Assembly: GCF_017813355.1 (NCBI RefSeq)
Contig: NZ_JAGIYZ010000021.1
Coordinates: 1-64,000 of the forward strand
Direction of reading: 5' to 3'
Length of the DNA: 64,000 nucleotides
From: Roseomonas nitratireducens
Lineage (GTDB): Bacteria > Pseudomonadota > Alphaproteobacteria > Acetobacterales > Acetobacteraceae
Shown: positions 1,895 to 12,561 of the stretch, one piece after another
How the letters are laid out: each line of letters starts with the position of its first letter
Numbering within the stretch: the stretch's first letter is position 1
Translations under genes and position numbers: made by a program
Notes under the pieces: generated by a model
Told to the model about the DNA's origin: nothing
Databases searched by the model: none
Seen by the model: only the letters and a program-made list of their open reading frames with translations

Positions 1895-2106
1895 CGCCGC
1901 CCCAGGGCTGCGCCGGCGATCGCACTCAGAAGCCCCTCCGGTGGCGGCCATTCCCGACCGCCTGCCACCCAGCGGTCGAACGCGATCCTGCGCAGCGAGG
2001 CGTGCTCGTAGCGCGCAGCCGGATCGTGGGTCGTCAGCAGGTCGTCCTGAACCACCTGGCTGTCGCGATCCGCGGCGACGGCGTCGAAGATGCCCGGCGC
2101 GGTCAT
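1891..2106 (-). CDS. 71-residue protein of unknown function
   Basis: This small mixed-composition protein begins MTAPGIFDAVAADRDSQVVQ and contains RRIAFDRWVAGGREWPPPEG. It starts at an ATGA overlap with the initiator gene (2103-2106) and ends in an ATGA overlap with the next small ORF. Its immediate coupling to the replication initiator suggests a role in the element's early functions, but no domain is recognised. Confidence 0.6.
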   Translation of the reverse strand: MTAPGIFDAVAADRDSQVVQDDLLTTHDPAARYEHASLRRIAFDRWVAGGREWPPPEGLLSAIAGAALGRR

Positions 2107-3251
2107 GCCTGCCTCCCGCCCTGGGCGCGCAGCGCGACGACATTGTCGGGCGCCGCCGCCTCATCGCGCATGGAGCGCGCCACCTTGGCGAAGTAGCGGT
2201 AGAAGCGACGCCCGACCGCATCCAAGTCAGCGCCGGTGGCGCGAGCCTCCTCGTCCAGCAATTCGCGGCCGCCCTTCATCCGCGCAGCCGATGCGGAGGC
2301 CGCGCGCAGCGCATCGCGTGACAGGCCCTCTGCCGACAGGTCGGCGACCGCCTGCAAGACCCACCCGCCGAAGGCGCCGTCCTGGCCGGCCAGCGCCAGC
2401 CCGTGCAGCACATCCTCGGCGGTGTCCTGCTGATCGGCCGTCAGCGCCGCCCAGGTGGTCGGCGCCGATGGCATCAGGGCGGGGCGGTGCCCGTTGATCG
2501 GCAGACCGGGCTGACGAGGCGTGTGCGGCTTCCCGCCCTCGGTTCGGAACCGCACCGCGTTCTGCACCCAGGTCCGCCACGAAGCCGACCAGTCTGCACT
2601 CGGCTTGCCCCTGGCGAGGTGGTGGTCCCGGAAGCGCGGCGCCTCGGCATCGGGGTCGACATCCCGATCCCGGGCGAAGGCTGCATCGGCTGGTGATGGC
2701 GACCACCCAGGGGGTAGGTGCGACCGCCTTGCCGCCACCACTCGCCCCCCCTGCCCCCCATAGGGTTGGGTTCCTTCCTGGTTCCTTCCTGGTTCGGGTC
2801 GCATGGTGCGACGGGTCCCGTCGCATGGTGCGACGGGTGTAGTCGCATGGTGCGACGGGTCAGGGGGGTAACCCGTCGCATGGTGCGACGGGTCGGCAGG
2901 CGGCAACCCGTCGCATGGTGCGACGGGTCGGGCCGGTTCCTGGGGGGGGTCAACCTCGGTGCCGGGCGGGTCGCGATGCTCGTCATTCGGCATCCCAGGC
3001 CCGAGCAGCGTGTAGCGGTTGCCCTTCCCCTTCTGCTTCCTGACACGCAGGAGCCCGTTCCGGACCGCCTCGTCTATGCAGCGAAGGATGGTGTCCTTCG
3101 ACATGTCGCTTTCCTCGACGAGTAGCGGAAGCGACGGGTTGCATTGCCCGCTCCCCTCGTTGTGGTGGTCGCCCAGCCGCAACAGGAAGTGCCGGCAGGC
3201 CCCCGAGACTCCGCGGACGGCGAAAGCCCAATCGCGAGCATTGCGGCTCAT
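2103..3251 (-). CDS. winged-helix replication initiator-like protein with embedded iterons
   Basis: This 382-residue protein has an N-terminal winged-helix domain (about residues 20-90; SMSKDTILRCIDEAVRNGLL-like recognition region, then the wing KGKGNRYTLLG) like HTH_36 replication proteins. A low-complexity linker (about residues 108-152) is encoded over five palindromic DNA repeats. The C-terminal region carries WRTWVQNAVRF, typical of these phage proteins, and a helical tail. The layout matches lambda O: DNA-binding N-terminus, origin repeats in the middle of the gene, C-terminal partner-binding part. Its gene overlaps the helicase gene by ATGA (3248-3251). The initiator role is inferred from domain type, position and repeats. 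Confidence 0.75.
   Translation of the reverse strand: MSRNARDWAFAVRGVSGACRHFLLRLGDHHNEGSGQCNPSLPLLVEESDMSKDTILRCIDEAVRNGLLRVRKQKGKGNRYTLLGPGMPNDEHRDPPGTEVDPPQEPARPVAPCDGLPPADPSHHATGYPPDPSHHATTPVAPCDGTRRTMRPEPGRNQEGTQPYGGQGGRVVAARRSHLPPGWSPSPADAAFARDRDVDPDAEAPRFRDHHLARGKPSADWSASWRTWVQNAVRFRTEGGKPHTPRQPGLPINGHRPALMPSAPTTWAALTADQQDTAEDVLHGLALAGQDGAFGGWVLQAVADLSAEGLSRDALRAASASAARMKGGRELLDEEARATGADLDAVGRRFYRYFAKVARSMRDEAAAPDNVVALRAQGGRQA
2769..2795. repeat. tandem 11-bp direct repeat beside the iterons
   Basis: GGTTCCTTCCT occurs twice in tandem (2769-2779, 2780-2790), followed by a partial third copy GGTTC (2791-2795). It ends two bases before the first iteron. It may be part of the same origin, for instance an unwinding or accessory-protein region, though it is not AT-rich. 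Confidence 0.65.
2798..2928. repeat. five iteron-like palindromic repeats, probable origin inside the initiator gene
   Basis: Five copies of GTCGCATGGTGCGACGGGT start at 2798, 2820, 2842, 2875 and 2910, identical over all 19 bases. Each is an inverted repeat around TGG (arms GTCGCA/TGCGAC), and the last two copies extend to 10-bp arms. Start-to-start spacing is 22, 22, 33 and 35 bp, close to whole helical turns. Because 22 and 35 are not multiples of three, the copies are translated in three different frames (PVAPCDG, PSHHAT, RTMR). This shows that the DNA, not the peptide, is conserved. Confidence 0.85.
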
Positions 3252-4702
3252 GCGACGATCTCCCGCAGCACGTCCCCGATGCGGGAGAGTTCGTCCTCCA
3301 CCGCGACGCGCACATGCCCGCGACGGCCCTGGCGATGCTTTTCCACGAACAGGTCCATCCGGCCCCGCTCGCGGTCCAGTTCATCGTGGAACCGCGCCGC
3401 TCGGTCCGCGAATTTCTCCTCGCTCTCCCTGTCGCCTCGGACTGGGCGCCGCTTCTCAAGGTGCCGCTCGGCCCGATGCAGCAAGATCACCACATCGGCA
3501 TCCTGCTCGATGGAACCCGACCACCGCAGATCGGCCAGCGTGGGCCGTGGATCCTCCCGGTTCTCAATGTCCCGGTTCAACTGCGCCGCCACCACGACAG
3601 GCACGTCCAGCGCCTGCGCCGCGCGCTTCATCGCCTTGCTGTTCTGCTCGGTGACGGCGACCAGCCCCTCGCGACCCATGCCGGCAGGCGCCTTCAGCAG
3701 CCCCAGGTAGTCCACCACCAGCAGCCCGACCTTGTGGCGCCGGACCATCGCCTGCGCGCGCATCAGCACATCGGCCGCCGTCATGTCCTGGCCGGCAACG
3801 ATGTGGATGCGGTCCAGCGCGGCATCGCCGCGCGCCTGCCGAAGCGCGTCCCATTCGGCCTCGGACAGCGACCGCGCCACCTCGGGCCGCAGGCGGTCGC
3901 CAGGAATTCCGGCGAGGTTCGCCAGCAGCCGCACGCGCCAATCCTGGCGGGTCATTTCCAGCGACACGATGCAGGAACCGACCCCGCGCCGCGCGGCACT
4001 CAGGGCGATCTGCCCCGCCAGCATGGACTTCCCGATGCTGGGCCTCGCGCCGATGACGACCATCTGGCCGGGGTGCACGCCGCCCAACAGCAGGCGGTCC
4101 AAGTCGCGCAGGCCCGTCGCCACCGCCCGCGAGGGCGTGGGCGTGCTGACGGCGCGCTCCATGTCGGACAGCAATTCGTCCACGGCATCGCGGGCGCATT
4201 GTTCGCCCTCGCCGGAACCCACCGCCGCCACACCGGCCAGCGCGGCCGATGCGTCCGAGAGGATTTCGGCGCCGGCTTCGTCCTCGAGGCGTTCGATCAC
4301 CGCGCGCTTGAGAGCGTCTGCAATCTCATCGGCGCGCCGGCGACGCCATCGGTCGACCACCTGTCGCGCCAGGAACCGTAGTTCCGACGCTGGCCAGAGA
4401 TTCCCCAGCAACCCGGCGAGGTAGGCCGGCCCACCCACCTCGGCCAGCAGGCCCGCCGCCTCATACGAGGCCCGCAGCGTGACCACATCGGCCACCCCGC
4501 CCTTGCCGACGATGCGCACAATGTCGGCGTAGATGCGCGCGCACAGGGGGTCGCTGAAGTGCTCTGGCCGCAGTATGTCGCCCACGAGGTCTAGGCGCGC
4601 ATTGTTCGCGAGCAGCGTGCCGACGATGCCCTGCTCATGCTCGGCGGTGGAGAGCAGGACCGCGCTTGCCGGCGGCGCGCCGAATACATGGACCCCGCTC
4701 AT
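3248..4702 (-). CDS. DnaB-type replicative helicase
   Basis: This 484-residue protein has an N-terminal DnaB helical domain (about 20-115) and a RecA-like hexameric helicase domain. Walker A is GARPSIGKS (about 218-226) and Walker B is LLVVDYLGLL (Asp about 331). A downstream DnaB motif with AAQLNRDIENR and LRWSGSIEQDADVVILLHR supplies the H3/H4 and arginine-finger regions. It would unwind the element's DNA at the fork. The length is normal for the family. Genes on both sides are joined by ATGA overlaps, placing it in one replication operon with the initiator. Confidence 0.93.
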   Translation of the reverse strand: MSGVHVFGAPPASAVLLSTAEHEQGIVGTLLANNARLDLVGDILRPEHFSDPLCARIYADIVRIVGKGGVADVVTLRASYEAAGLLAEVGGPAYLAGLLGNLWPASELRFLARQVVDRWRRRRADEIADALKRAVIERLEDEAGAEILSDASAALAGVAAVGSGEGEQCARDAVDELLSDMERAVSTPTPSRAVATGLRDLDRLLLGGVHPGQMVVIGARPSIGKSMLAGQIALSAARRGVGSCIVSLEMTRQDWRVRLLANLAGIPGDRLRPEVARSLSEAEWDALRQARGDAALDRIHIVAGQDMTAADVLMRAQAMVRRHKVGLLVVDYLGLLKAPAGMGREGLVAVTEQNSKAMKRAAQALDVPVVVAAQLNRDIENREDPRPTLADLRWSGSIEQDADVVILLHRAERHLEKRRPVRGDRESEEKFADRAARFHDELDRERGRMDLFVEKHRQGRRGHVRVAVEDELSRIGDVLREIVA

Positions 4703-5577: not shown

Positions 5578-6080
5578 GCCAACCTCCCCGCAGCGGCCAG
5601 CAGCGTGTCGTCCAGCCCGGCGCCGGCCGCGACCATCCGATCCGCCAGCGCCAGCCACGCCTTCGCGTGATCCCGGTTGGCCGGGTCGGCCTGCGCGATC
5701 CGGGCCGCGACGCGAAGGTCGGCCACGGTGGCGTGCTGCGGGAACACCGCCTTGCCGTTGTCGACGGTCAGCATTCGGGGCAGGCGCACGCCGTCGCATT
5801 CGACGTGATCCAGGCCGTCGCCCACCTGATCGGTGCGCGGCAGCGCGTCCTTCGCCATGAACTCCGCGACCATGTTGGTGAGGCCCTGCATGAACAGCGC
5901 CTCGCGCTTGGTAGGATCAAGCATGTCGGCCAGCAGGCCGATGATCATGCCAGGATTGACCGCGTAGCCCTGGCGCATCAGCGCGACGAACTCCGCGTCG
6001 GCCATGCCGCCGGTGGCCTCGTTGATCCGTTCCAGCAGCGCGTCCAGGCGAGCCGGGCTGGTGTCCTCGGCGCCGCTCAC
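5574..6080 (-). CDS. 168-residue protein of unknown function
   Basis: This acidic, mostly helical protein begins MSGAEDTSPARLDALLERIN. The C-terminal third has alternating helical stretches (DLRVAARIAQADPANRDHAK). It overlaps both neighbours by ATGA (6077-6080 and 5574-5577), so it is co-translated with the HTH protein and the 74-residue protein. The family is not recognised. Confidence 0.65.
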   Translation of the reverse strand: MSGAEDTSPARLDALLERINEATGGMADAEFVALMRQGYAVNPGMIIGLLADMLDPTKREALFMQGLTNMVAEFMAKDALPRTDQVGDGLDHVECDGVRLPRMLTVDNGKAVFPQHATVADLRVAARIAQADPANRDHAKAWLALADRMVAAGAGLDDTLLAAAGRLA

Positions 6081-6346
6081 TGCGTCTGCTCGCCGCCGAA
6101 TGCGCGCTCAGCGGTCCATGTCGGATCGCCCGAGGCCTCGCGACCCAGGCGCTCGAACTCCGCGCGCGGAACCAGCCGCCGCGAGCCTCCGATGTTCACC
6201 GACCGGATCACGCCCTGGCGGATCATCCCATAGACGCCGCTCTGGCTGATCCCGAGCAACGAAGCGGTCTCGGCCGTGGTGAAGGTCAGGCGCTCGGGCA
6301 CGAGGCGGGGCTTCGTGGCGCGCCGGCGGACTACGGGCTGTGACAT
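6077..6346 (-). CDS. excisionase-like helix-turn-helix protein
   Basis: This 89-residue protein has a MerR/excisionase-type HTH (TTAETASLLGISQSGVYGMI, then VNIGGSRRLVPRAEFERL), the usual form of phage Xis and AlpA-like proteins. It would bind DNA near the attachment site or control early transcription. The start at MSQPVV is chosen over an upstream ATG because AGGAG lies about 7-8 bases before it. It is divergent from the integrase side, with a long dyad in the intergenic region. Confidence 0.75.
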   Translation of the reverse strand: MSQPVVRRRATKPRLVPERLTFTTAETASLLGISQSGVYGMIRQGVIRSVNIGGSRRLVPRAEFERLGREASGDPTWTAERAFGGEQTQ

Positions 6347-6356
6347 GGGGCTCTCC

Positions 6357-6397
6357 TGCCAATTTGCGCAACACTGCGCGCTGTGTGAGCATTGGCA
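6357..6397. promoter_or_regulatory. 41-bp dyad operator candidate in the divergent control region
   Basis: Outer arms TGCCAAT (6357-6363) and ATTGGCA (6391-6397) are perfect inverted repeats centred on 6377. Inside them, ACAC-T-GCGCGC-T-GTGT is a near-perfect dyad with the same centre. It lies between the excisionase-like gene (starts 6346) and the plus-strand gene at 6473, and touches the excisionase ribosome binding site. It is a likely operator or recombination-protein site. Confidence 0.5.
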
Positions 6398-6472
6398 CCG
6401 CACCGCAGAGGGCGGCCCTTGTCAATGCTGTGGCCGCCATCTGCGTTGCGAGAATTGCAGGAGAACCACCCG

Positions 6473-6991
6473 ATGCAGCGTATTCCCCTGGACTGGATGC
6501 CCGGCGACCAGCGCCGCCGCAGCCAGCCCCCCGAACCCGAGCCGCGCGGCTGGACCGCGCCCACCTCCGACAGCGCCATGGACAACCTCGAAACCGGCAT
6601 CGCCCGTCTGCTCGCCGCCCTATGGGACGAGCCCGACGAGCGCGGCCGCTACCCCTGGCGCGACGCCGCGCAGCCCGGTCAGCCCGACTTGGTCTGGATG
6701 GGGCGCGAACTGGACGATGCCGCCGCCCGGCATGAGGTGCAGGTCAAGTTCAGCAACCTGTTCTCCACCGCGAAGCCCGAAGCCCTCGCCGCCGAGTTCA
6801 TCGGCACCAGCCCGCGCGCCGCGACCCTGCTGGTCTGGCGCGCCGCCGTCCGACAGGGCCGCGACCTGGGCACCTGCGAATGGTGCGGCGGCCTGTTCGC
6901 CCATGGCTCCCGACCCGGCCCGCTGTTCTGCCGCCAGGACCATGCCCTCGCCGCCGCCGCCCATCGGCGCCAGACCAGCGGGGGGCGCTGA
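6473..6991 (+). CDS. zinc-finger-like protein preceding the integrase
   Basis: This 172-residue protein is preceded by AGGAGA at 8-9 bases. Its C-terminal part contains CEWCGG followed about 14 residues later by FCRQDH, a likely C-C-C-H zinc-binding site. The central part is helical and unassigned. Its stop overlaps the integrase ATG (TGATG at 6989-6993), so the two are translationally coupled. A role in integration or in host DNA interaction is inferred from position only. Confidence 0.6.
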   Translation: MQRIPLDWMPGDQRRRSQPPEPEPRGWTAPTSDSAMDNLETGIARLLAALWDEPDERGRYPWRDAAQPGQPDLVWMGRELDDAAARHEVQVKFSNLFSTAKPEALAAEFIGTSPRAATLLVWRAAVRQGRDLGTCEWCGGLFAHGSRPGPLFCRQDHALAAAAHRRQTSGGR

Positions 6992-8163
6992 TGGCCTCGG
7001 TTGAACGCCGCATCACCGTCGCCAAGGGCGGCGGCAAGATCACCCGCTGGCTATGCCGCTGGTCCGAAACCCAGGACGGCGAGCGCCGGCAGCGCGTGCA
7101 GACCTTCGGCACCAAGCAGGAGGCCATGGACTGCGCCGCCCGCATGACCGGCCTGGAAGCGCGCGGCATCCCCGCCACCGCCCGCATGACCTTCCGGCAG
7201 CATGTGGACCTGTGGCTCGCCGCCTGCGCCGCCACCCGCAAGCCCGCGACCGTGGAGCATTACCGCCAGAAGATCGGCATGGTGCTTCCCCACCTCGGCC
7301 ACCTCGAACTCCGCAAGATCGGGGTGGAGCATGTGGAAGAAGCCGTGCGGAAGGCTGCCATCGGACAGGGCGGCAGACCCCTCGCCCCGCGCACAGTCCA
7401 CCATGTCCATGCCGTGCTGCGGAACTGCCTGGGCGATGCGAAGCGGCTGCGCAGGATCAACGACAATCCGGCCCGCGATGCCCGCGCCCCGTCAGTGCCC
7501 AGGAAGCGCATGACCGCGCCGACCCTGGACGAGATCGCCGCCATGGCCGACGCCGCCCGCGATGCGCCCACCCGAACCCTGATCCTGCTCGCAGGCCTGA
7601 CCGGCATGCGCCGGGGCGAACTGGCGGCGCTGCGCTGGAGCGCGGTGGACTTCGCCGAGCGGTGGATCTCGGTCCATGCCGTGATCGAGCAGGCCGGCCG
7701 CGCCGATACTGCCCGCCTTCGCGAGGGCGCCAAGACCGAGGGGAGCGTCAGGCGAATCGCCATGTCGGCCGCTGTTGAGGGGCTGCTGCGCGCCCACCGC
7801 GCACACGAGGCCGAACTCGCCCTCGCCTGCGGCGTGCGTTTGCCCAGCGATGCCTACCTGTTCCACCAGCCCAGCGGGTTCTCGGACCATTGGACCCCGA
7901 GCGCCCTGACGGCGAAGGCTGCGCGAGCCCGCGATGCCGCTGCCGTGCGCCGGGAGGTCCAGCCCCTCCATGGGGCGCGGCACCGCTATGCGACCTCGTT
8001 GATGGGCGTGGTCCCCGACTCGCTGCTTGCCGCCGCCCTTGGTCATAGCGATCCGCGGACCACGCGGGCGATTTACCAGCGCGCCGAAGAAGCGGGCGAG
8101 CGAGCGACCGCCGATGCGGCGGATGCGGCCCTGGGCGGGCTACTCCGGCGCCCTGGGCGCTGA
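6991..8163 (+). CDS. tyrosine-family site-specific integrase
   Basis: This 390-residue phage-type tyrosine recombinase has an N-terminal arm-binding region (about 1-60), a core-binding SAM-like domain (about 65-150) and a catalytic domain with all expected residues: Arg207 (TGMRRGEL), Lys248, His327-x-x-Arg330 (HGARHRYAT), His352 (LGHSD) and the nucleophile Tyr362. It catalyses integration and excision at the tRNA attachment site. The start at 6991 is fixed by the TGATG overlap with the preceding stop. The tRNA-Cys 3' fragment lies about 130 bp downstream. Confidence 0.95.
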   Translation: MASVERRITVAKGGGKITRWLCRWSETQDGERRQRVQTFGTKQEAMDCAARMTGLEARGIPATARMTFRQHVDLWLAACAATRKPATVEHYRQKIGMVLPHLGHLELRKIGVEHVEEAVRKAAIGQGGRPLAPRTVHHVHAVLRNCLGDAKRLRRINDNPARDARAPSVPRKRMTAPTLDEIAAMADAARDAPTRTLILLAGLTGMRRGELAALRWSAVDFAERWISVHAVIEQAGRADTARLREGAKTEGSVRRIAMSAAVEGLLRAHRAHEAELALACGVRLPSDAYLFHQPSGFSDHWTPSALTAKAARARDAAAVRREVQPLHGARHRYATSLMGVVPDSLLAAALGHSDPRTTRAIYQRAEEAGERATADAADAALGGLLRRPGR

Positions 8164-8392: not shown

Positions 8393-8468
8393 TCCCCGAT
8401 AGCTCAGCTGGTAGAGCGCGGGACTGTTAATCCCTAGGTCGTTGGTTCGAGTCCAACTCGGGGAGCCA
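8393..8468 (+). tRNA. tRNA-Asn (GTT)
   Basis: This is a complete cloverleaf. The acceptor TCCCCGA pairs with TCGGGGA, the anticodon GTT is at 8426-8428 in CTGTTAA, the T loop is TTCGAGT, the discriminator is G, and CCA is encoded. A C-T mismatch closes the anticodon stem, as in several tRNA-Asn. Confidence 0.96.
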
Positions 8469-8478
8469 CCTTTCTCGG

Positions 8479-9617
8479 TCATCCCACGCGTGACACTGCC
8501 CCTGGCGCAAGCCAGGCGAGTTCGCCGCCCGCGAAGACCGCGACCGGCGCCGGCCGCGCCGGATCCACCACCACCACATCCCCGCGCATCCCAGGCGCCA
8601 GCCGTCCGCGATCGGCAAGCCCGCAGGCTTCGGCCGGGTTCGCCGAGACCAGCGCCCAGGCCCGCGGCAGGTCCATCGCGCCGCGGCGGACCATTGCGAA
8701 GGCCGCTTCCAGCATCGCCGGCCAGACGTAGTCGGAGGCAAGCACCGTCACGATCCCGCGCTCGGCCAGCGGCGCGGCGGACGCCCAGCCAAGATGGCTG
8801 CCGCCCCGCACCACGTTGGGCGCGCCCATCACCACATGCTCGCCCGCCCCGCGCGCCGCGATCGCGACCTCCTCGGCCATGGGGAATTCGCAGATCGTCG
8901 CGCCATGCGCGCGGTAATGCGCGCGGTCATCCAGGGTCGCGTCGTCGTGGCTCAGCACGGGGATGCCGGCGCGCCGCGCGGCCTCGGCCAGACGGCCCCG
9001 CGCCGCGGGGATCTCGCCGCGCCGGGCGATGACCGATTCGGCCAGCGCGCGGAACGCATCCGCCTTCATCCCGGCACGCCCGGCATACTTCGCCATGTGG
9101 GTCGAATCATCGAGGCCCGCGCGATCGCCGGCGTGTGGTCGTTGAATCCGAGCAGGTGCACCGACCCATCCGCGATGCCGTCGAGCGCGTCGTCTAGCGC
9201 GTCGAGATTGTCCGCCTCGAAGCGGAGATGCACGCGAAGGTCGGTCGCCGATGCCGCGCGCGCCGCCGGCAGCGCCGCCTTGAGCGCGCGCCACGAAGCC
9301 AGCGACCGCAAGCCAGGCTCCCAGGACAGGGTCACGCCGAGATAGGCGGTGGTGATGCCGCAGGCCACGAGCTGCGCCGCCGAATCGCGCAACGCGAGGC
9401 CGATCGGCAGGTCGACACCCGGCCGCGGCTGCATCTGCCGCTCATGCGCATCGCCATGGATGTCGACCAGGCCCGGCAGCACCAGCAGCCCCGAGGCGTC
9501 GAAGCCCCGCGCGCCGGCCGCCGGCCTTTCCGTCACCACGCCGTCCGCCAGGGCCAGTGCGCCATCCACCATCGTCCCGTCCCGCAGGACGGTGCCGCCG
9601 TTCAAGTTCCAGGTCAT
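8479..9617 (-). pseudogene. PhnM-family phosphonate hydrolase, broken by a single frameshift
   Basis: Two overlapping reading frames together give a full-length PhnM-like amidohydrolase (alpha-D-ribose 1-methylphosphonate 5-triphosphate diphosphatase family). The first part has the metal motif HGDAHERQMQPRPG and runs to FNDHTPAIAR. The second resumes at DDSTHMAKYAGRAGM and ends with VVMGAPNVVRGGSH and LASDYVWPA. Frame is lost near 9111-9122. One extra C in the GGGCC run would restore AIARALDDSTHMAKY. The start (9617) lies 4 bases after the phnF stop. A true pseudogene, an assembly error or recoding cannot be separated here. An intact paralogue is at 14859-16001. Confidence 0.8.
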
Positions 9618-9621
9618 CGGA

Positions 9622-10368
9622 TCAGGGTTCCACGACAAGTTGCACGCGGCCGGCCGCGTAGACCGCGAGGGTGAAGTCCACGGGCTCGCCGTCCGGGTCG
9701 ACATTCAGCGATTCCGCGACGAGCACGGGACGGGAGCGCGATTGCTGCAGGAGGTCCGCTTCCTCCGGCGTCGGCAGGCGCGCGGTGATGCGGGAGGACC
9801 GGCGCCGGTAGTCCGCGACGCCGCAGGCCGCCAGCGCCGCCGTGATCGAGCCGTCCAGACCGAGCGCCTCGGCCGCCGCAGCACAGCGCGGCAGCGGAAA
9901 ATGATGCTGGCCGAGCACGACGGGCCGTCCGTTCGAGAGCCCCAGGCGATCGACCCGCAGCACGAGCCGCCCGCGACGCAGCCCGAGCGCCTCCGCCACC
10001 TGCGTTTCCGCCGCGACCTCCGCGATCCGCAGGACGCGCCCGGCGGGTTCCCGGTTCAGCCGGCGGATCACCTCCGAAAAGCGCGTGCGCGGGCCGAGAC
10101 GGTAGTCGACCACATCCTCCGCCACGAAGGCGCCGCGCCCCTGCTCGACGCGGATCAGCCCGCGCGCCTCCAGATCCTCGAGCGCGCGGCGCACGGTGTG
10201 ACGGTTCACGGCGAAGCGTGCGGTCAGCATCGCCTCGGTCGGCAAACGTTCGCCTGCGCCCTTGCCGCCGCCGGCGATCTCGCTTTCCAGCGCCGCCGCG
10301 ATCTGTCGCCACAGCGCCACGCCCTGGCCACGGGCGAGCGGCGTTCCTGTCATCGAAACTTCAACCAT
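9622..10368 (-). CDS. phnF: GntR/HutC-family regulator of phosphonate use
   Basis: This 248-residue protein has an N-terminal winged-helix GntR domain (LPTEAMLTARFAVNRHTVRRAL, about 40-65) and a C-terminal UTRA effector domain. It matches PhnF in length and in its location divergent from phnG. PhnF proteins repress phn genes. A TTGTCTAGATAA dyad in the phnF-phnG gap is a candidate operator. A second in-frame ATG (10353) is possible; neither start has a strong ribosome binding site. Confidence 0.9.
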   Translation of the reverse strand: MVEVSMTGTPLARGQGVALWRQIAAALESEIAGGGKGAGERLPTEAMLTARFAVNRHTVRRALEDLEARGLIRVEQGRGAFVAEDVVDYRLGPRTRFSEVIRRLNREPAGRVLRIAEVAAETQVAEALGLRRGRLVLRVDRLGLSNGRPVVLGQHHFPLPRCAAAAEALGLDGSITAALAACGVADYRRRSSRITARLPTPEEADLLQQSRSRPVLVAESLNVDPDGEPVDFTLAVYAAGRVQLVVEP

Positions 10369-10423
10369 GAGCGGTCAGGTCCGTGGGATATCCGTGTGGA
10401 CTTTGTGCCGGGCGGATGTCTAT

Positions 10424-10435
10424 TTGTCTAGATAA
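10424..10435. promoter_or_regulatory. candidate PhnF operator
   Basis: TTGTCTAGATAA is a 10-of-12 palindrome, with TGTCTA repeated just upstream (10418-10423). It sits in the phnF-phnG intergenic region, 6 bases before the phnG ATG, where repressor binding would block initiation. Confidence 0.5.
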
Positions 10436-10440
10436 GCCCG

Positions 10441-10896
10441 ATGAGCATCATGGACACCGCCCAGACCGAACAGCGCCGCCATTGGATGGCCGTGCTTGCC
10501 CGCGCCTCCGGCGAGGAGATCGCCGGACTTCTCGCCACCCTTCCGCCCCTGCCGCCGCACGCGACCCTGCGCCCGGCCGAGACCGGCCTCGTCATGGTGC
10601 GCGGCCGCGCGGGCGGCGATGGCGCGCCCTTCAACCTCGGCGAGATGACCGTCACGCGCTGCGCCGTGCGCCTCGGCGAGCAGGTCGGCCACGCCTACGT
10701 CGCCGGGCGCGACAAGCGACAGGCGGAACTCGCCGCGCTGCTCGACGCCGCGCTGCAGGACCCCGCCCGGCGCGACGCGCTGATGGGCGGCGTCGTCGTG
10801 CCGCTCGCCGCCGGGCAGGCGGCGCGGCGGGATTCGGAAGCGCGCCGCGCGGCGGCGACGAAGGTGGAATTCCTCGCCATGCAGACGACGCGATGA
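10441..10896 (+). CDS. phnG: C-P lyase subunit PhnG
   Basis: This 151-residue protein matches PhnG, which forms the (PhnGHIJ)2 carbon-phosphorus lyase core and helps PhnI transfer the phosphonate onto ATP ribose. It has the family stretch NLGEMTVTRCAVRL and GHAYVAGRDKRQAELAALLDA. The ATG at 10450 is an alternative start. The leader is very short, so the mRNA may be nearly leaderless. The stop overlaps phnH as ATGA. Confidence 0.95.
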   Translation: MSIMDTAQTEQRRHWMAVLARASGEEIAGLLATLPPLPPHATLRPAETGLVMVRGRAGGDGAPFNLGEMTVTRCAVRLGEQVGHAYVAGRDKRQAELAALLDAALQDPARRDALMGGVVVPLAAGQAARRDSEARRAAATKVEFLAMQTTR

Positions 10897-11468
10897 GCAT
10901 GCTGACCCCAGGCTTCGCCGATCCGGTGCTCGACGCGCAGGCCGCCTTCCGCGCGGTGCTGGACGCGATGAGCCGCCCGGGCCGCCTGCAGAATGCGGGC
11001 CGTGGCCTCACGCCCCCTGCCCCGCTGGCACCGGCCGCCGCAGCCGTGCTGCTCAGCCTGGCCGACGCGGCGACGCCGCTCTGGCACGATGCCGGTGCGG
11101 AGGCCGATGGCTGGCTGCGCTTCCACGCCGGCGCGCCGGTCGCGTCGGCGCCGCAAGATGCAGCCTTCCTGCTTGCGACAGGCGCGCCGCCGGCGATCGC
11201 GATGCTGGATGCCGGCATCGAGGAAGAACCCGAACGCGGCGCGACCCTGCTGATCCAGGTCGAGGCGCTGGAGGAAGGCAACGGGCTGCGCCTCACCGGC
11301 CCGGGGATCGAGCACGAGCACCGCCTGCTGGTGCGCGGCCTGCCCGAAGGGTTCGTCGCCGCCTGGGCCGCGAACCGCGCGCTGTTCCCGCGCGGCGTCG
11401 ATGTCATCCTCTGCGCGGGGGACCGGCTCGCCGCCCTGCCGCGCACCGTCGCGATCGCGGAGGGCTGA
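10893..11468 (+). CDS. phnH: C-P lyase subunit PhnH
   Basis: This 191-residue protein is a PhnH homologue, the PLP-transferase-fold subunit without PLP that scaffolds the C-P lyase complex. It begins MSMLTPGFADPVLDAQAAFR, the usual PhnH opening. It is joined to phnG by ATGA overlap (10893-10896) and followed by phnI after 4 bases. The length is normal. Confidence 0.95.
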   Translation: MSMLTPGFADPVLDAQAAFRAVLDAMSRPGRLQNAGRGLTPPAPLAPAAAAVLLSLADAATPLWHDAGAEADGWLRFHAGAPVASAPQDAAFLLATGAPPAIAMLDAGIEEEPERGATLLIQVEALEEGNGLRLTGPGIEHEHRLLVRGLPEGFVAAWAANRALFPRGVDVILCAGDRLAALPRTVAIAEG

Positions 11469-11472
11469 ACCC

Positions 11473-12561
11473 ATGTATGTCGCGGTGAAGGGCGGGGAAC
11501 GGGCAATCTCCGCCGCCCATGCCTGGCTGGACGAGACCCGGCGCGGCGATCCGGCGGTGCCGGAACTGACCGTCGCGCAGATCGAGCAGCAGATGGGCCT
11601 CGCGGTCGACCGCGTGATGGCGGAAGGGTCGTGCCACGACCGCTTCCTCGCCGCGCTGGCGATCAAGCAGGCGAAGGGCGACCTGATCGAGGCTGCCTTC
11701 CTGTTGCGCGCCTATCGCACCACCCTGCCGCGCTTCGGCGCCTCCGAGCCACTGGACACCGGCGCGATGCGGCTGCGCCGGCGGATCAGCGCCACCTACA
11801 AGGACCTGCCGGGCGGCCAGGTGCTGGGGCCGACCTTCGACTACACGCACCGGCTGCTCGATTTCGCGCTGGCCGCGGAAGGCGCGCCGCCCGCCGCGGC
11901 GCCGGAGGCCGAGACGCCCGTCGCTTCGACGCCGCGCGTGACGGAGTTGCTGGCGCGCGAAGGGCTGATGCAGCGCGAACCGGCGGACCCCGGCGAGCCG
12001 GGCGACCTGACGCGCCAGCCCCTCGCCTTCCCCGCGCCGCGCGACGTGCGGCTGCAGAACCTGGCACGCGGCGACGAGGGCTTCGTCCTCGCGCTCGGCT
12101 ATTCCACGCAGCGCGGCTATGGCGGCAACCATCCCTTCGTCGGCGAGATCCGCGTCGGGCATGTGGCGGTGGAATTCACCCCGCCCGAGTTGGGCTTCCC
12201 GATCGATATCGGGGAGATCGGCATCACCGAATGCCAGATGGTCAACCAGTTCAAGGGCAGCCGGACGGAGCCGCCGCAATTCACCCGCGGCTACGGGCTG
12301 GTGTTCGGGCATGGGGAACGGCGCGCCATGTCGATGGCGCTGGTCGACCGCGCGCTGCGGTCCGCCGAACTCGGGGAAGACGTCACCGCGCCGGCGCAGG
12401 ACCAGGAATTCGTGCTGTACCACTCGGACAACATCGAGGCGAGCGGCTTCGTCGAGCACCTGAAGCTGCCGCACTACGTGGACTTCCAGTCGGAGCTCGA
12501 GAACCTGCGGACGATCCGCGCCGCACTCGTCCGCGAAGCCATGCCGGAGGCCGCGGAATGA
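11473..12561 (+). CDS. phnI: C-P lyase subunit PhnI
   Basis: This 362-residue protein is PhnI, the nucleosidase that, with PhnG, PhnH and PhnL, displaces adenine of ATP by the phosphonate to give 5'-triphosphoribosyl-1'-phosphonate. The conserved opening MYVAVKGGERAI and the segment ALGYSTQRGYGGNHPF are present. The start follows the phnH stop by 4 bases and excludes an upstream non-homologous extension. It is coupled to phnJ by ATGA. Confidence 0.96.
   Translation: MYVAVKGGERAISAAHAWLDETRRGDPAVPELTVAQIEQQMGLAVDRVMAEGSCHDRFLAALAIKQAKGDLIEAAFLLRAYRTTLPRFGASEPLDTGAMRLRRRISATYKDLPGGQVLGPTFDYTHRLLDFALAAEGAPPAAAPEAETPVASTPRVTELLAREGLMQREPADPGEPGDLTRQPLAFPAPRDVRLQNLARGDEGFVLALGYSTQRGYGGNHPFVGEIRVGHVAVEFTPPELGFPIDIGEIGITECQMVNQFKGSRTEPPQFTRGYGLVFGHGERRAMSMALVDRALRSAELGEDVTAPAQDQEFVLYHSDNIEASGFVEHLKLPHYVDFQSELENLRTIRAALVREAMPEAAE

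Follow-up and report, generated by a model that had tools for sequence, protein, structure and literature searches.

In the window analyzed here, the first 64,000 nucleotides (64 kb) of a 77,945-bp contig of Roseomonas nitratireducens, a prophage replication gene carries within its own coding sequence an array of five identical repeats followed by a strip with three evenly spaced GAACC units. Judged from sequence comparison, array and strip very probably constitute a prophage replication origin embedded in the gene of its own initiator. Phage lambda has its origin inside its O-type gene, and the lambda-like reading of the array offered in the preliminary description of this DNA now appears well supported: the same layout, with other repeat sequences, occurs in 49 of 71 members of the initiator family, and the iterons annotated in lambda O, starting at gene offsets 348, 368, 392 and 415, likewise fall by simple arithmetic into three frames.

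The initiator gene (2103..3251, minus strand) encodes a winged-helix phage replication initiation protein of 382 amino acids, with a Pfam HTH_36 match (E 7.6e-7; aa 22-68, encoded by 3048..3188, minus strand) and a match over aa 1-235 to the PHROG profile phrog_1032, 'replication initiation protein' (E 6.8e-15); Phage_rep_O (PF04492 / TIGR01610) was not recovered from Pfam or NCBIfam even at E values as high as 1. Directly upstream lies a gene for a DnaB-type helicase (3248..4702, minus strand; DnaB_C E 3e-57, phrog_19 E 4.2e-84), which overlaps the initiator start codon by 4 bp (3248-3251), confirming the coupling first described. An excisionase-like gene (6077..6403, minus strand; HTH_17, TIGR01764 E 1.3e-9), a phage integrase recognized by profile matches (6880..8163, plus strand) and a tRNA-Asn gene that may represent the attachment site (8393..8468, plus strand) follow, and we interpret the region as a prophage truncated where the contig ends.

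The array comprises five exact copies of GTCGCATGGTGCGACGGGT (plus strand), starting at positions 2798, 2820, 2842, 2875 and 2910, and spans 2798-2928 within the minus-strand initiator gene. In gene order, these are iteron 1 (2910..2928, read as VAPCDG), iteron 2 (2875..2893, SHHAT), iteron 3 (2842..2860, SHHAT), iteron 4 (2820..2838, VAPCDG) and iteron 5 (2798..2816, RTMR), all minus strand, and their frames are 2, 1, 1, 2, 0, as expected from the earlier statement that the array is read in three frames. The repeats had been called five identical 19-bp palindromes; the identity of the five 19-mers stands, but the 19-mer is not a perfect palindrome, and the symmetric core common to all five is 15 bp long, with 6-bp arms GTCGCA/TGCGAC around TGG. 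Arms of 10 bp occur in two iterons only, namely iteron 1 (over 2906-2928) and iteron 2 (over 2871-2893). Start-to-start spacings are 22, 22, 33 and 35; the description of these as near multiples of a helical turn holds for 22 and 33, which fit two and three turns, but not for 35. A genome-wide scan of the 4.98-Mb genome found GTCGCANNNTGCGAC sites at these five places only.

When the initiator gene was shuffled 2,000 times among synonymous codons with the protein kept, 19-mers were present at most twice and a 15-mer rose to three in a single shuffle; the actual gene has five copies. The repeats are not due to chance, and their copy number exceeds what the peptide dictates, in agreement with the earlier claim that the DNA rather than the peptide has been kept. 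That claim came with the expectation that in relatives the palindrome would stay constant while the peptide drifted, a pattern now seen in one distant relative (L573), whose product shares 30% identity over 144 residues with the initiator of the window, its C-terminus remaining unaligned.

An AlphaFold2 model of the initiator, built from 30 sequences (mean pLDDT 72.4), is confident for the winged helix (aa 1-90) and for a helical domain (aa 181-230), and of low confidence for aa 91-170 (block means 41-59). The residues encoded by iterons and GAACC units, approximately aa 108-161, fall within this low-confidence stretch and are predicted to form a disordered linker, so that the array follows the winged helix and precedes the next domain modeled with confidence, the counterpart of its proposed position between DNA-binding and C-terminal regions. 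Because the encoded part would be a linker tolerating any frame, one DNA stretch could serve as both code and origin. The second folded domain (encoded by 2538..2723, minus strand) may be distantly DnaT-like by profile comparisons: hhalign gave an E value of 8e-4 but a probability of only 24, Pfam reported no match of the window initiator to the DnaT DNA-binding domain (PF17948), and a DnaT profile built here matched 1 of 71 initiators, that of the window not among them. PF17948 was found in the relatives L192 (1.4e-15), L128 (1.1e-5), L145 (7e-4), L179 (0.004), P0001 (0.03) and L126 (0.06). In L128, ORF 832-2187 encodes a replication-type protein that has a DnaA N-terminal domain (DnaA_N 8.2e-6) behind its DnaT-type domain.

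To survey the family, initiators were gathered by protein profile with repeats disregarded, yielding 71 genes including that of the window. An array was scored when a 14-mer, with no more than 2 mismatches allowed and both strands considered, was present at least three times and above the synonymous-shuffle expectation at p ≤0.05, using 1300 nt and 60 shuffles, whereas the 51 control ORFs were run at 1200 nt and 40 shuffles. Excluded were L133 and L134 (the G017 and G003 genes, C-terminal match only), L137 (two stops), nine further C-terminal-only matches (six of which served as the DnaT control, with L247 among the other three), L128 and the named phages. Arrays were detected in 49 of the 71 initiators, occupying more than one frame in 44 and a single frame in 5; the remaining 22 had no array by the 14-mer test, whose sensitivity is incomplete (lambda was detected, P22 gene 18 has only two copies, and PMG1 was negative). 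The test was positive in 3 of 51 other ORFs and in none of six host DnaT-type genes. Without the window, the comparison is 48/70 initiators versus 3/51 control ORFs (Fisher 5e-13), and as some of the surveyed genes are close kin, the count after clustering is given separately: 34 of 50. An earlier round that included lambda had found 17 of 27 genes positive.

In positive genes, array centers lie at a median of aa 111. Iteron spacings are 21-24 nt in 91 of 160 cases, and in 43 of the 49 genes the units show greater self-complementarity than units drawn at random from that gene. Repeat sequences vary widely among the initiator genes, with close kin having theirs in common. An O-like gene in L189 holds nine iterons (nt 342-523) at steps of 22-24 nt, with two sequence variants alternating. 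When each positive gene was searched for its lowest-GC 40-mer, the start of this segment lay no more than 90 nt 3' of the final iteron in 28 of 48, compared with 5.6 expected and 9 for a matched 5' interval. These comparisons suggest that the in-gene origin layout may be common across a far wider set of phage initiators than lambda, in which case many prophages could have their origins recognized from sequence.

Immediately 3' of the array (2769-2795), the window contains a feature that the preliminary description does not mention, three GAACC units spaced 11 nt apart in three frames, all on the minus strand: unit 1 at 2791..2795 (gene position 456, frame 0), unit 2 at 2780..2784 (gene position 467, frame 2) and unit 3 at 2769..2773 (gene position 478, frame 1). 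Three GAACC at this strip arose in 5 of 2,000 synonymous shuffles. Further GAACC occurrences in the gene lie at 2935-2939, before the array, and at 2541-2545. The surrounding 40-mer (2760..2799, minus strand), which we propose as the opening element, is modestly AT-richer than the gene (GC 0.55 vs 0.71), the GC minimum of the gene being in the winged-helix part. Defining a GAACC-type phage origin as at least two GAACC, 11-12 nt apart, 3' of the iterons on the coding strand, we classify the window as having one.

The same word is concentrated in the 3' flanks of the arrays in the 48 positive genes, with 65 occurrences per 4705 nt versus 37 per 28919 nt elsewhere in these genes. All 65 are on the coding strand, distributed over 28 of the 48 genes, versus 2 on the opposite strand; 20 genes have none in the 100-nt flank. 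The 36 positive genes fetched after GAACC had emerged as a lead gave 56 occurrences in 3505 nt of flank versus 28 in 21909 nt elsewhere, with flank GAACC in 24 of the 36 genes, and the observed 56 compare with a synonymous-shuffle mean of 27.7 and a maximum of 39 in 500 shuffles. With the window included, spacings of 11 or 12 nt account for 30 of 40, and the frames are divided 44, 15 and 10. Self-repetition of the flank at lag 11 is pronounced across the 48 flanks (z 8.4) and is also present in the 26 flanks with fewer than two GAACC (z 5.5). Flanks lacking GAACC (L221, L225, L226; L191, L244, L245) display other short repeats at this place, of GATCC and AACCATCC type.

Viral sequences were scanned for four GAACC separated by 6- or 7-nt gaps, with the reversed motif at the same gaps as control. 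An O-like domain on the same strand, with GAACC 84-243 nt 3' of it, was present in 50 of the 120 stretches listed, and such placement was present in 0 of 120 listed for the control; both scans returned at least 120 stretches, so these counts compare content, not abundance. In 47 of 47 distinct viral contexts, the 200 nt preceding the first GAACC contain a 14-mer at least three times, a raw count made without shuffle control. By eye, the rest of the listed GAACC stretches are mostly other tandem repeats, along with a few initiator genes truncated at a contig end. The literature search, with most subscription journals outside its coverage, found no paper on a GAACC motif in phage origins; the strip is apparently an undescribed element, with priority uncertain.

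We propose the GAACC strip as a putative strand-opening element and envisage the following course of initiation. The winged-helix domain would attach as dimers to the five palindromic iterons, as in lambda, and the resulting strain would open the neighboring strip that contains the three GAACC 11-mers. A protein might then hold a single strand of these units, in the manner of TrfA on the RK2 13-mers, and the DnaB-type helicase from the overlapping upstream gene would be loaded, the iteron-encoded peptide acting merely as a flexible linker. A broader proposal, possible although we lean slightly away from it, is that phage initiators of the HTH_36 type have in common an origin-opening code in which tandem 11-12-nt units, starting with GAACC on the coding strand and placed directly 3' of the phage-specific iterons, are recognized in single-stranded form by the initiator or a conserved host factor and set helicase entry, so that iterons vary by phage while GAACC stays constant. 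A DnaT-like domain as the GAACC reader was considered and dropped, since L573 has GAACC though its C-terminus does not align. More generally, GAACC occurs in phage MD8 with a P-like loader, in the window with a helicase and in L573 with an unaligned C-terminus, and thus seems to track no single helicase partner or C-terminal domain. The strip offers a concrete strand-opening candidate, a short word common to phages with unlike iterons, and its binding partner and strand preference are open to direct testing.

Other explanations of the array have to be weighed. Selection could act on the linker protein, with the DNA repeats merely following; SHHAT and VAPCDG do each recur, 5 of the 49 arrays are single-frame, and spacings divisible by 3 are over-represented (76/160, more than one third; p 2e-4), an excess which implies that the peptide is not wholly free. 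Yet the window copies lie in three frames, 44 of 49 positive genes are multi-frame, protein-preserving shuffles never reach five copies and the segment is predicted to be disordered, which together make a peptide origin of the repeats extremely improbable. Palindromes with arms of 6 to 10 bp would also suit a dimeric regulator, either the initiator or another protein, controlling transcription of the replication genes. We consider such operators very unlikely, as all five sites lie within the gene, downstream of its start, with none elsewhere in the genome, and as the arrangement recurs beside a GAACC strip, although autoregulation through the iterons may exist besides the origin role.

The array could finally have arisen by neutral tandem duplication or through insertion of a mobile palindromic repeat. 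Paired GTCGCANNNTGCGAC is indeed found in many genomes, and L578 has two exact copies of the window 15-mer at a distance of 26 nt, neither of them in an O-like gene; however, the 19-mers of the window are invariant while the spacers between them differ, no additional copy exists in the genome, and different repeats occupy the same place in 48 of 70 other initiators, leaving this account with hardly any probability. The embedded origin is the reading we retain. Scanning of genome contigs showed paired GTCGCANNNTGCGAC in at least 118 stretches; among the 118 listed, from many other genomes, centers are mostly AAA or AAT, a crude pattern assigns an ORF6N-like signature to 23 loci and one, L573, has an O-like initiator, and the mobile-repeat reading of paired GTCGCANNNTGCGAC was rejected for the window. 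L573 contains seven sites of the form GTCGCA-N3-(T or A)GCGAC, spread over the three frames and encoding peptides unlike those of the window; its GAACC units follow at 432, 443 and 454 of the gene, with the frame order 0, 2, 1 seen in the window. L243 contains two copies of the half-site pair with a 4-nt center. Within L492-L609 (e.g. L497, L503 and L505), palindromes of the form GGTCGCAAATTGCGACC occur in pairs or triples before and inside ORF6N-like genes of several phyla, where they are perhaps an operator kept within its own gene.

Comparison with known systems places the window near lambda. Accounts of lambda describe an origin in the middle of gene O, whose iterons, 19-bp inverted repeats of almost perfect symmetry to which O binds as a dimer, adjoin a 40-bp A+T-rich region (PMC5043065, PMC7466680). 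The window resembles it in that five inverted repeats of about 19 bp, with arms of 6 to 10 bp, lie inside the initiator gene and separate the sequence for the DNA-binding domain from that for the C-terminal part. The two differ in that lambda O matches Phage_rep_O (PF04492) and TIGR01610, whereas the window initiator matches neither; lambda has the loader P, whereas the window encodes a DnaB-type helicase; and the lambda flank has ACAAAAGA-type repeats without tandem GAACC. PMC8022706 reports that in lambda, P22 and L the coding sequence of O or gene 18 carries repeats that differ from phage to phage, and describes P22 gene 12 as a DnaB-type helicase. P22 resembles the window in that its origin is annotated inside gene 18, but in P22 and L the repeats are others and the initiator gene precedes the helicase gene, whereas in the window the helicase comes first, and P22 gene 18 has no GAACC. 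As an origin within an O-type gene is already known from lambda, P22 and L, the probable in-gene origin of the window is not new in kind. Both P22 (L491) and lambda (L147) have ACAAAAGA-type repeats 3' of the iterons, where the other class has GAACC, which suggests that these repeats could be a second kind of opening element.

Pseudomonas phage MD8 is described as having repeats within its O-like gene gp56 (PMC8508860). This gene has GAACC at 382, 393, 405 and 417, after its repeats, and thus resembles the window; its iterons differ, and the phage has a P-like helicase loader and no helicase. In the account of the plasmid RK2 oriV (PMC4081077), initiator iterons stand beside short 13-mers, one strand of which TrfA binds specifically. 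TrfA on the 13-mers is our model for the proposed role of GAACC, with the differences that RK2 has a plasmid origin and that the GAACC units are 11-12 nt apart and inside the initiator gene.

Protein searches of viral contigs, phage records and other genomes revealed no close relatives of the window initiator. The initiator gave one partial match and its first 110 residues none; there was no relative in viral contigs, eight matches in phage records were all below 27% identity, and partial matches appeared in 4 of 98 other genomes. Two relatives used as queries yielded nothing further. A BLAST search of the array against phages gave no match, and the exact iteron pair was found in 0 viral stretches and, among 249 family genomes, in G000 only. 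By itself, the 15-bp palindrome says little in viral contigs, with at least 120 stretches and one match per locus in 120 of 120. The window helicase had no relative in viral contigs; 189 of 200 family genomes gave a match to it, the listed ones besides that of the window having approximately 32-40% identity, and these are taken to be mostly host DnaB.

On the other side of the tRNA-Asn gene, the prophage region is adjoined by a phosphonate-use cluster (8479-12561) that includes a GntR/UTRA regulator (9622-10368, minus strand), PhnG (10441-10896, plus strand) and PhnI (11473-12561, plus strand). Within it, an amidohydrolase-like frame, which we take to be PhnM, is seemingly split across two overlapping ORFs (8479-9294 and 9066-9704).
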